From: Candidatus Micrarchaeaceae archaeon
Lineage (GTDB): Archaea > Micrarchaeota > Micrarchaeia > Micrarchaeales > Micrarchaeaceae
Assembly (NCBI GenBank): GCA_027310825.1
Contig: DAIDAC010000004.1
Span: forward strand, 1-64,000
Length of the DNA: 64,000 bases
Direction of reading: 5' to 3'
Below the pieces are notes generated by a model. It was given only the letters and a program-made list of their open reading frames with translations. It was not told the origin of the DNA and ran no database searches. Shown piece after piece: positions 43,867-47,301 of this stretch (position 1 is its first letter; every line of letters starts with the position of its first letter). Both the position numbers and the translations under genes were made by a program.

Positions 43867-43878
43867 TTTATAAATATA
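43867..43878 (+). promoter_or_regulatory. TATA element at the head of a gene-poor stretch
   Basis: TTTATAAATATA can serve the forward candidate RNA at about 43900. Read the other way, TATATTTATAAA could serve the DUF92 gene. Confidence 0.45.
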
Positions 43879-43899
43879 CCTACCGCTTTAATATTACGA

Positions 43900-44067
43900 G
43901 TTCTCTAAACTGTAGGAAGGTCGTGAAGAACTGGTCGCCTTGCTGGGGGGCGTTCTTGCCTCCTGGCACTTTTTCTGCTGTGAATTTAAGCACGAATAGC
44001 CTTGGCTATTCGTTGCACAGAAACAAAGCGCACACGGCTAACTGCACGTGCAGCGTGCCAGTTTTCT
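43900..44067 (+). ncRNA. Candidate structured RNA, unassigned
   Basis: About 165 nt without a plausible protein, headed by a TATA element about 28 nt upstream. It contains a strong hairpin (CGAATAGC/GCTATTCG, 43993-44012) and ends in a terminator-like stem (CTG-CACG/CGTG-C-CAG, 44042-44061) followed by TTTTCT. An AAGAAC/GTTCTT stem is possible at about 43925-43958. It begins with CTAAACTGTAGGAAG, repeated exactly at 44177-44191. It resembles no RNA I can name; tests against RNase P and SRP RNA landmarks failed. Confidence 0.3.
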
Positions 44068-44406
44068 AACGTTTAAATACCTATTTGTGCCTAAAAGGTT
44101 TAGGAATGCGTGCGCCGACGCTCTATAAGCAGGCAATCTTGTTGTGGTTTAAAGATAATAAAACTTAGCTGCTGCACTAAACTGTAGGAAGTTAGAAGTG
44201 TGATGGTAGTGGAATGCTTATCCCATGACAGAGTTTCTTGCTGTTAAAGGTAGTCACATACCAGCCCTGGGAACGTTTTCATTCCGCTACATATACTATA
44301 ACGTAGTTGAGATATTTACGGGTTGCGCCCGGGTATTTACGTATTTCCGGTTAGTTGGACTTGCGTCAAAGGAAAAGCGTATATACTGTTTACTATTTAT
44401 TGAAAA
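44068..44406. other. Gene-poor stretch with repeated promoter/motif units
   Basis: These 339 nt hold no convincing protein gene. There are TATA-like boxes at 44071-44080 and 44147-44153, a degenerate copy of the CTAAA...TAGGAA motif at 44091-44108 and an exact 15-nt copy at 44177-44191. A possible leaderless 20-codon ORF lies at 44106-44168, and a 66-codon ORF at 44225 runs into tRNA-Ser. Either several small RNAs or decayed sequence. Confidence 0.4.
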
Positions 44407-44530
44407 CGCCAGGAGGGAGATTTGAACTCCCAATCCCCGAAAGGACCGGTTTGCTTGTTTGCATCACTAATCAGCTCTTGATATTTTAAAAATTCAAGAC
44501 CGGCGCAATACCGGATTATGCGATCCTGGC
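44407..44530 (-). tRNA. tRNA-Ser(UGA) with a 41-nt intron
   Basis: The reverse strand gives acceptor GCCAGGA/TCCTGGC with G73. The anticodon stem CCGGT/ACCGG encloses loop C T T G A A (anticodon UGA), and there is a class II variable arm (CC-TTTC-GGGG). The T arm is GGGAG-TTCAAAT-CTCCC. An intron of about 41 nt (44452-44492) interrupts position 37/38; TCTTGA of the anticodon loop pairs with intron TCAAGA, giving the central helix of a bulge-helix-bulge for EndA. Confidence 0.92.
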
Positions 44531-44570
44531 TTACAGACTCTTTTATCAAGAAGTAATTTAAGATGATGTT

Positions 44571-46424
44571 ATGAACGCGAAGATAGTTGAGACTTTGAAA
44601 GCTTGTGCTAAAAAATTTGAATCTTTGACTTCTGGCTGCTTCTTTGAGATAGCAGAAGAGAAACCAGGCGTGGCTTACATGTTTGGCGAACGGCTGGAGA
44701 GCTTGCGGTGCGTAGAAGGCCGCCAATCCAGTTATGGAAAGGCCAAAGACGCGTGGGAATGGACGAAAGACAGTGGCCCTGTGCTTATAGAACCTGACAA
44801 CGAGCCAAACCCTCACATCCTCGTAGTGGGGATGAGCGGCTTTGGGAAGAGCACGCTTTGCAAGTCGCTGATTTTGGAGATTTGTAGGGCAGGAAAGAAG
44901 ATAATGGTGTTCGACGTCCACAACGAACACACAGACGCGATAAAAAGTGTCGGTGGGGAGGTAAGGAACGCTCTTTATTCTGGAATAAATCTGCTCGCTC
45001 TTGACGGAATGACAGTAAGCGAGCGTGTTGATGGCCTTGTTGATCTTTTTGCAGAGGTGTACAGGCTTGGCGGCATACAAATAGCGAAGTTGGGCGAATG
45101 CCTAAAGTACACCTACAGGAGGTTTGGTGCGCAAGGAGAAAACGCGGTCTCCTTGGAGAAAACCCCGACCATGGACGACTTGATTGACGAACTTAGCGTC
45201 TTTATAATGCATTCCAAGACTTCTACGGAGCGCGACGGTTTGCTGAACCTCAGAACAAAGCTAAGGCCGTTGAACACCGCAGCATTCAATAAAAACTTCG
45301 TTACTTTAGAACAGCTTAGAGGTTCCGTAATGTCGTTCTCGCTTGCCAGATTAAAAAGCAAGGAAGCTCGTGCCATTTACATAAACGAGCTGCTGAAAAG
45401 ACTCTATCTGACCATGAAAGACAACACCAGAGAGCAGGGAATACGCCATTACATAATGATAGATGAGGCACAATTCTTGCTCGGGAACGGCAGCATGGCA
45501 GGTGAGTTGATAAAGCGGTTGATAGAAGAAGGTAGAAAGTATGGAGTAGGCCTGATAGTCGCGACCCATTCCGCGAGCGCGCTTGACAAACAGATTGTGG
45601 CCAACGCTTCAACATTCATAAGTTTTTATTCGAGGGAGCCGGACGAAGTAGAATACGTTTCGAAACTTCTGTCGAATGGAAATCGGGAGATGGCTGAGGC
45701 TGTAAAGAGCCGTATGTTGCAGATGAAACAGCACGAAGCGCTTGTCGCGTCTGGCAGTATCGGCACGCCATTATTGGTGAGAACGCTCTCTGCTGCAGAA
45801 GTCATACTGCAATTGGACAATGACAAGCTTGCGGAGGCGGCTGAAAAGGAGTTAAAACAGGATATTGTTGCATTCGCGCTCAGGCCTGTCAGCAATAAAA
45901 TGTTGTGTGAGAAGTTTGGTGCGAAAGCCGAGGCTTCGGCACTCGATCTGATCAGCACTGGAGAACTTGGCATAATGACCTGGAAGCCGACAGCAGATGA
46001 AAAGGACAACGAAACTTGGTACATGATGAAAAATGGTGGACTTAGCATACAGCACGAGGTCTTCGTAAGAAAAATCTCTGAAGGACTTTCGCTGCATGGA
46101 ATAAAGAATGTTACGACGCTACAGGGCAGCGATAAGCCGGATATTATCGCGTTCACAAAAGCTGGGAACGCTGCAGTAGAATATGAAACTGGCAACAAGA
46201 AAAGTTCCATACCGACCAAAGTGATGCTAGAAAGGCGAATAAAGAACTACTCTGCAGTCTACGTCTTTGTCGCAGATGATCATTATGAAAGGTATTGCAG
46301 GAATTTCGCACAGGATAAATTACACATAGTAAAATTCTGTGACTTGGATTCAGTAGCGAAAGCGCTTCTGGACTTAGAGCCTGTGGCGGCGCAACATAAC
46401 AATTTAAAAGAGGCTCCGACATAA
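44571..46424 (+). CDS. HerA/DUF87-type ATPase with C-terminal nuclease-like domain
   Basis: This 617-residue protein has a HerA/VirB4-like P-loop: Walker A VVGMSGFGKST (residues 85-95), FDVHNEH (114-120), Walker B HYIMIDEAQF (293-302) and VATHSASALDKQ (330-341). A winged-helix-like region follows (about 430-490). Residues 520-575 (SDKPDIIAF ... AVEYETGNKK) fit a PD-(D/E)XK nuclease, with D524, E537/E539 and K543. It may be a hexameric DNA-translocating ATPase joined to a nuclease, for DNA processing, transfer or defence. It starts 41 nt from the divergent tRNA-Ser and ends 7 nt before the UbiA-family gene. NurA is not adjacent. Confidence 0.85.
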   Translation: MNAKIVETLKACAKKFESLTSGCFFEIAEEKPGVAYMFGERLESLRCVEGRQSSYGKAKDAWEWTKDSGPVLIEPDNEPNPHILVVGMSGFGKSTLCKSLILEICRAGKKIMVFDVHNEHTDAIKSVGGEVRNALYSGINLLALDGMTVSERVDGLVDLFAEVYRLGGIQIAKLGECLKYTYRRFGAQGENAVSLEKTPTMDDLIDELSVFIMHSKTSTERDGLLNLRTKLRPLNTAAFNKNFVTLEQLRGSVMSFSLARLKSKEARAIYINELLKRLYLTMKDNTREQGIRHYIMIDEAQFLLGNGSMAGELIKRLIEEGRKYGVGLIVATHSASALDKQIVANASTFISFYSREPDEVEYVSKLLSNGNREMAEAVKSRMLQMKQHEALVASGSIGTPLLVRTLSAAEVILQLDNDKLAEAAEKELKQDIVAFALRPVSNKMLCEKFGAKAEASALDLISTGELGIMTWKPTADEKDNETWYMMKNGGLSIQHEVFVRKISEGLSLHGIKNVTTLQGSDKPDIIAFTKAGNAAVEYETGNKKSSIPTKVMLERRIKNYSAVYVFVADDHYERYCRNFAQDKLHIVKFCDLDSVAKALLDLEPVAAQHNNLKEAPT

Positions 46425-46431
46425 CTTTATC

Positions 46432-47301
46432 ATGAATAAACTGGTAGCGATTGCTAAGCTGACAAGGATAGAGCATTCGATAATGCTGATCATTGCCGTG
46501 CTTGCTGCAGAACTCATTGCCGGGGGCCTCCCAAGCCTCCAGATAGTTCTGCTTAGCCTGGTGAGCGCGATCTTCGTGAGTGCTGGCGCGTTCGCGATAA
46601 ATGACTATTTTGACGTCGCTGCCGACAGAGCCAACGGCTTGAAGAACAGGCCGATAGTCGCAGGAGCGATATCGAAACGGGGCGCCTTTGGCGTGGCCAT
46701 TGCATGCTTTGTAATCGGAATACTGGCGAGCGCGCCGATCAATGTCTATGTTCTGACGATTGCAGTTATCTTTAGCGTTCTTGATTACCTTTACAGCTAC
46801 AAAATGAAGGACATTGCAGTCCTCGGCAACGCCTACGTTGCGCTCGGCATGGCGCTCCCGTTCGTTTTCGGAACGTTTGTAGTGACTACTGCAATACCTC
46901 CATCAATAATCTTTATCTTCTTCATCATTTTCCTGAGTGGGGTTGCTCGCGAGATACACGGAGCAATCCGCGACAAAGAAGGAGACATGAAGGCCAGGAG
47001 GTCGAGGAATATCGTTTACAAAATTGGTGTGAAAAAGTCTGCTCAGCTCGCATTCATACTTTACGCCGAGGCGATTGCGTTGAGCGAGTTCCTTTTTGTT
47101 TTCAGGGCCCCGTTCGCCTACAACCTTGTCTACATAATCCCGATAACGATAGTCAACATTGCGCTCTTTTACGTAGCTGCTGGTTACTACGCGAAGCCCA
47201 CAAAAGAGTTCTTCAAAAGGTCGAGGAACATAAGCCTTGGAGCCATGGCTCTGGCTCTGATAAGTTACCTGATTGCGGCAATCTACTTCTTGCCGATATA
47301 A
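46432..47301 (+). CDS. UbiA-family prenyltransferase (likely DGGGP synthase)
   Basis: This 289-residue integral membrane prenyltransferase has about eight helices. The first Asp-rich motif is NDYFDVAADRANGLKNRP (near residue 62) and the second is RDKEGDMKARRSRNIV (near 180). In archaea the closest role is (S)-2,3-di-O-geranylgeranylglyceryl phosphate synthase, which adds the second geranylgeranyl chain of membrane lipids. Substrate choice within UbiA is hard to read, so menaquinone-type prenylation is the alternative. Seven nt after the HerA-like gene. Confidence 0.88.
   Translation: MNKLVAIAKLTRIEHSIMLIIAVLAAELIAGGLPSLQIVLLSLVSAIFVSAGAFAINDYFDVAADRANGLKNRPIVAGAISKRGAFGVAIACFVIGILASAPINVYVLTIAVIFSVLDYLYSYKMKDIAVLGNAYVALGMALPFVFGTFVVTTAIPPSIIFIFFIIFLSGVAREIHGAIRDKEGDMKARRSRNIVYKIGVKKSAQLAFILYAEAIALSEFLFVFRAPFAYNLVYIIPITIVNIALFYVAAGYYAKPTKEFFKRSRNISLGAMALALISYLIAAIYFLPI

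Follow-up and report, generated by a model that had tools for sequence, protein, structure and literature searches.

The locus described here lies in a window of 64,000 nt (the whole stretch of DNA that was analyzed, from a Candidatus Micrarchaeaceae archaeon), and it raises the question of what a cell might do with a HerA-type motor that carries a nuclease-like domain on the same polypeptide chain. An earlier note on this DNA had described one 617-residue protein with a HerA/VirB4-like motor, and this is confirmed by an open reading frame at 44571-46424 on the forward strand and by its Walker motifs. The note had given the span as 43867-46424; the gene itself accounts for 44571-46424, but position 43867 falls in a spacer beside an RNA gene. 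The features of the region are as follows.

43892-43981, forward strand: structured small-RNA gene of ~85 nt, separate, phylum-wide and single copy (covariance models R1 and R2; covariation)
44407-44530, reverse strand: intron-containing tRNA-Ser(UGA), oriented head-to-head to the motor-nuclease gene (Rfam RF00005, E 4e-6)
44571-46424, forward strand: gene for a 617-aa predicted single-chain DNA translocase/nuclease (open reading frame; AlphaFold2 model; relatives in the order)
44676-45815, forward strand: HerA/FtsK-superfamily ATPase core with short N-terminal beta part, residues ~36-415 (Pfam DUF87, Foldseek)
45819-46028, forward strand: winged helix-turn-helix (wHTH) domain, residues ~417-486 (secondary structure of both models; wHTH Foldseek matches)
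46047-46370, forward strand: PD-(D/E)XK-like nuclease domain, ExE variant, residues ~493-600 (predicted fold, Foldseek, invariant residues)
46432-47301, forward strand: UbiA-family prenyltransferase-like gene, 7 nt downstream of the motor-nuclease gene (own-genus synteny; named by sequence recognition)

The AlphaFold2 model of the motor-nuclease protein, which was built on 70 homologs and has a mean pLDDT of 91.5, runs from a short N-terminal beta part through a HerA/FtsK motor and a winged helix to a PD-(D/E)XK-type domain. The motor and the nuclease of the earlier domain layout are thus both present, but the winged helix between them had been overlooked; wHTH proteins are among the Foldseek matches of the C-terminal model. 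Walker A (G87-x-S-G-x-G-K-S94) and Walker B, which ends in D298-E299, show no or almost no variation among the 70 homologs and agree with the intervals that had been claimed for them (residues 85-95 and 293-302). With both Walker motifs and a DUF87-type fold, the motor belongs to the HerA/FtsK ATPase superfamily. Pfam DUF87 matches it at 2.6e-10 and covers the ATPase part only. For the whole model, Foldseek ranks highest the C-terminal domain of DndH (7.4e-18), VirB4 (4e-15), and HerA (1e-14), and the top-scoring profile among the libraries scanned is PADLOC mad8 (5.5e-26), which is confined to the motor core. NCBIfam gives CedD at 6e-16 and CedB at 1.3e-14, again for the ATPase part only, and the curated NCBIfam cut-offs for CedB, CedD, and VirB4 are missed (58 bits versus 600 and 54 versus 700). 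Across Pfam, NCBIfam, PADLOC, and PHROGs, matches are restricted to the motor or, at the C terminus, are weak. No HAS-barrel is among the Pfam matches listed for this protein, whose motor is preceded in the model by only a short beta stretch, and a HAS-barrel search across the order gave few weak matches, with a control that was positive in just 4 of 14 genomes.

The structure prediction that the earlier note proposed for the C-terminal block gives a PD-(D/E)XK-type fold. Modeled alone, the domain has a pLDDT of 94.5 and an alpha-beta-beta-beta-alpha-beta core, and its best Foldseek matches among solved structures, at modest E-values, include HindIII (2.8e-4, the best), Bax1 (7.3e-4), and Hjc (about 0.02), along with BspD6I. 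A viral structure library returned generic nuclease folds. Seven residues (H495, P523, D524, E537, Y538, E539, and R556) are invariant in the 70 homologs, and K543 is conserved in at least 90% of them; D524, E537/E539, and K543 had been placed correctly. Glu539 occupies the position of the Lys of the PD-(D/E)XK motif, which makes this an ExE variant; BamHI has the same ExE arrangement in place of ExK. The domain has no significant sequence match to the Pfam nuclease families, and a PDB sequence search with a profile of it found no match. Based on the predicted core fold and on D524/E537/E539, the assignment of the C-terminal domain to the PD-(D/E)XK type is supported, and together with the Foldseek matches and the invariant residues it bears out the claim that a nuclease-like C terminus and a motor are joined in one chain.

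We surveyed 164 genomes of the phylum that are at least 85% complete, 82 of which belong to the order of the window (Micrarchaeales). Taking a match better than E 1e-45 as presence, the motor-nuclease protein is found in 69 of these 82 genomes, one of the 69 as a partial match. The 13 genomes that lack it (G004, G013, G014, G031, G032, G047, G053, G057, G207, G222, G235, G242, and G244) show that it is not a conserved housekeeping gene kept at one locus in all relatives, as the earlier note had considered. Public-genome relatives are titled Candidatus Micrarchaeota, with a few labeled "Marsarchaeota" and one labeled "Mancarchaeum"; among them is the complete Micrarchaeum sp. A_DKE record. In the gene tree, members of the order form one clade that is divided into two taxonomic families, with some long branches; motors from other families are sisters of this clade, and canonical HerA and VirB4 fall outside. 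Within the genus, the proteins are 38 to 55% identical.

Canonical HerA has a very different distribution. With Fermentimicrarchaeum HerA as the query and a threshold of E 1e-25, it was detected in 65 of the 164 genomes; all 65 are among the 82 that lie outside the order, and the order itself has none. NurA (PF09376) gave 65 matches, and the only member of the order among them is the window's own genome, with a weak match. Rad50 is present in 156 of the 164 genomes. The A_DKE record, in which 72 kb are masked, yielded neither canonical HerA nor NurA, and no rRNA motif either, but it does contain a distant DUF87 ATPase. This pattern fits a loss of HerA-NurA in the order. The window's own genome has a divergent NurA-HerA pair (L194:5618-8541, on contig G000:C9) that is nearly absent from the family; a transposase-like gene, named by its sequence, lies ~1.5 kb away. 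The HerA of this pair escaped the Fermentimicrarchaeum query, and therefore other divergent HerA-NurA pairs could be missed as well. Some genomes of the order appear to have neither machine: the 13 without the fusion also have no recognizable HerA. A literature search on Micrarchaeota and NurA found nothing.

Other C termini are found on this motor lineage in genomes outside the order. In L197, and by sequence in L198 and L200, it ends in an MTES_1575/DUF559-like nuclease; in L199 it ends in a winged helix; and in L154 (403 aa) there is no extra C terminus. Motor and cutter have been combined repeatedly, with various C termini on one motor lineage. The nuclease domain of the order also aligns by hhalign with a VirB4-like protein of L197 (E 1.7e-8) and more weakly with that of L200 (E 3.1e-5). 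These VirB4-like proteins, at L197:1720-4098 and L200:955-3300, have a terminal EIETG segment. Sister groups have this motor alongside HerA-NurA, and therefore the motor's ancestral job differed.

In its own genus, the motor-nuclease gene sits between DUF92/tRNA-Ser and the UbiA-like gene, with no NurA gene among these neighbors. The intron-bearing tRNA-Ser reported upstream is confirmed by the Rfam match, and its serine identity comes from sister loci, where most calls are tRNA-Ser(TGA) with an intron of ~40 nt. When sister genomes are compared at this tRNA, as had been suggested, presence and absence are both seen: G002 and G012 have a clean empty site with tRNA-Ser and ubiA directly adjacent, and in G001 the slot holds a different gene on the opposite strand. 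The head-to-head arrangement with tRNA-Ser (within 300 nt) recurs in 20 of 27 loci of the family, spanning 14 genera, with varying protein neighbors, and is found in 0 of 13 loci of the sister family. There, in five loci, an endonuclease IV (PF01261) gene precedes the motor-nuclease gene by 2 to 29 nt on the same strand. Endonuclease IV was observed directly upstream in L064, L066, L070, L072, L073, and L203. Most of these loci also have a protein of 180 to 230 aa nearby or directly before, and L203 has the three genes in a row; the 180- to 230-aa protein of L064 matches no Pfam family.

The spacer upstream had been read as a series of repeated TATA/motif units. We found a single 15-nt direct repeat, CTAAACTGTAGGAAG, which starts at 43905 and 44177 and exceeds chance. 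Its first copy lies inside the conserved small-RNA gene at 43892-43981, and the spacer is better described as one RNA gene and a lone 15-mer than as promoter repeats. The second copy (44177-44191) stands by itself and is unlikely by chance. A TATA-like box precedes the small RNA. Model R1, made from eight sequences of the genus, detects this RNA in 145 of the order's 158 genomes, among them every one of the 51 with a completeness of at least 90%; model R2, made from 34 sequences, detects it in 195 of the 223 phylum genomes searched, almost always as a single copy. Eight of 13 base pairs change on both sides, a level reached by 0 of 500 shuffles. Rfam scans of this part of the window (up to E 10) and of seven related loci (up to E 2) gave no match to the RNA. 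The RNA lies between divergent DUF92 and radA genes in most of the genera examined within the order, and outside the order an RNA-cyclase-like gene (named by its sequence) follows it in several genomes. It is present where the motor-nuclease gene is absent and is therefore independent of that gene. This previously uncatalogued RNA may be more novel than the motor-nuclease itself.

What, then, does the fusion do? The earlier note had left the choice between a single-protein DNA-processing device and a defense device. We favor processing; a defense role is conceivable, although no feature in the vicinity of the gene suggests one. Specifically, we give about an even chance to the proposal that this is a single-chain DNA translocase-nuclease for end processing or repair beside Mre11-Rad50, partly replacing HerA-NurA. 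The HerA/FtsK-type domain would form a ring, presumably a hexamer, that pumps double-stranded DNA at the expense of ATP; the winged helix would touch DNA or position the cutter; and the C-terminal domain, with its BamHI-style ExE site, would cut the DNA during its passage. We consider the processing or repair of DNA ends next to Mre11-Rad50 the most likely setting, with the fusion partly standing in for a two-protein HerA-NurA machine that the order may have lost. A repair role is favored by the lack of recognizable canonical HerA, and the near-absence of NurA, in the order, the retention of Rad50, and the presence of the fusion in 69 of 82 genomes, and the pairing with endonuclease IV in five loci of the sister family favors a role in DNA processing. 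Against this, losing HerA-NurA and gaining the fusion look like a single coincidence in evolution, with no independent replicates, and the endonuclease IV link is restricted to one family. The 13 genomes with neither the fusion nor a recognizable HerA, the coexistence of the motor with HerA-NurA in sister groups, and the chance that divergent pairs were overlooked also count against it, and patchy presence and fast divergence would suit a defense gene as well. The broader proposition, that the whole order dropped HerA-NurA resection and relies on one motor with its own wHTH-nuclease arm, a nuclease type found also on a VirB4-like motor in the phylum, is one that we put forward tentatively and consider somewhat less probable.

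The fusion could instead be a chromosomal defense gene, in which the motor would seize invading DNA and pass it on to the nuclease of the same chain. HerA motors work with separate nucleases in known defense systems, and for HerA/FtsK "capture" systems it has been proposed that captured DNA is channeled to nucleases for degradation (PMC12839542). That mad8 is the highest-scoring profile and that the DndH C-terminal domain is the nearest solved structure of the motor are both consistent with this, as are the empty slot in G002 and G012 and the low identity within the genus. However, the mad8 match stops at the motor core, the own-genus neighbors are housekeeping genes, no other component of a PADLOC system was recognized beside the gene (the PADLOC scan covered the motor-nuclease protein), and the gene is in most genomes of the order, compared with the patchy occurrence typical of defense genes. 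A literature search on MADS found nothing. Although defense is the main competitor of the processing reading, we consider it rather unlikely.

A role in processing DNA for an import or conjugation-like apparatus with a VirB4/CedB-like motor is improbable. It would account for the CedD and CedB matches, for VirB4 being among the best folds of the motor, and for the related nuclease domain on a VirB4-like protein of another family, but every NCBIfam score is far under its cut-off, the model has no VirB4-like N-terminal domain, and the gene has no VirB6-like neighbors, while a separate VirB4-like gene of the same genome adjoins multi-membrane proteins. The latter locus (L193, on contig G000:C8) resembles a type IV secretion-like locus. 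Very improbable, and mostly refuted, is the suggestion in the earlier note that the gene is a remnant of an element integrated at tRNA-Ser. The tRNA is indeed adjacent and the slot is variably occupied within the genus; however, the locus showed neither an integrase nor att-like repeats, it is the 5' end of the tRNA and not its 3' end that faces the gene, and the tRNA pairing is kept in 14 genera. A recent mobile or integrated element was likewise rejected: the family is order-wide, its tree agrees with taxonomy at the level of the two families, no relative was found in viral contigs, and no full-length relative in phages or plasmids, where matches are confined to the motor.

On the preferred reading, as a DNA end-processing enzyme, the protein is a natural single-chain test case for the coupling of a HerA-type pump to a nuclease, and it hints at a way in which DNA ends might be processed in reduced DPANN genomes that have no HerA-NurA. 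That one motor bears several kinds of C terminus indicates that motors and cutters have been recombined. The same DNA stretch also holds a phylum-wide, single-copy structured RNA outside all Rfam families.

Compared with HerA-NurA, the archaeal system for DNA end resection, the fusion likewise combines a HerA/FtsK translocase with a nuclease in genomes that have Rad50, but it does so in one chain rather than two, has no HAS-barrel match, and has a nuclease that is PD-(D/E)XK-like and not NurA; none of the order's 82 near-complete genomes has a recognizable canonical HerA. The DndH C-terminal domain (7ES4) is the motor's best Foldseek match (E 7.4e-18, TM 0.75 on the target), but no DndF or DndG genes were recognized beside the motor-nuclease gene, whose product carries its own wHTH and nuclease domains. 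SIR2-HerA and DUF4297-HerA defense systems also pair a HerA-like motor with an effector, whereas here the effector is fused in cis and has another fold, and no such partner was recognized at the locus. VirB4, CedB, and CedD have a related ATPase core but differ in that the motor-nuclease has neither a VirB4-like N-terminal domain nor membrane partners at its locus and ends in wHTH and nuclease domains. Finally, the predicted C-terminal fold is the PD-(D/E)XK fold of Hjc, HindIII, Bax1, and BamHI, although the sequence of the domain matches no Pfam nuclease family significantly.
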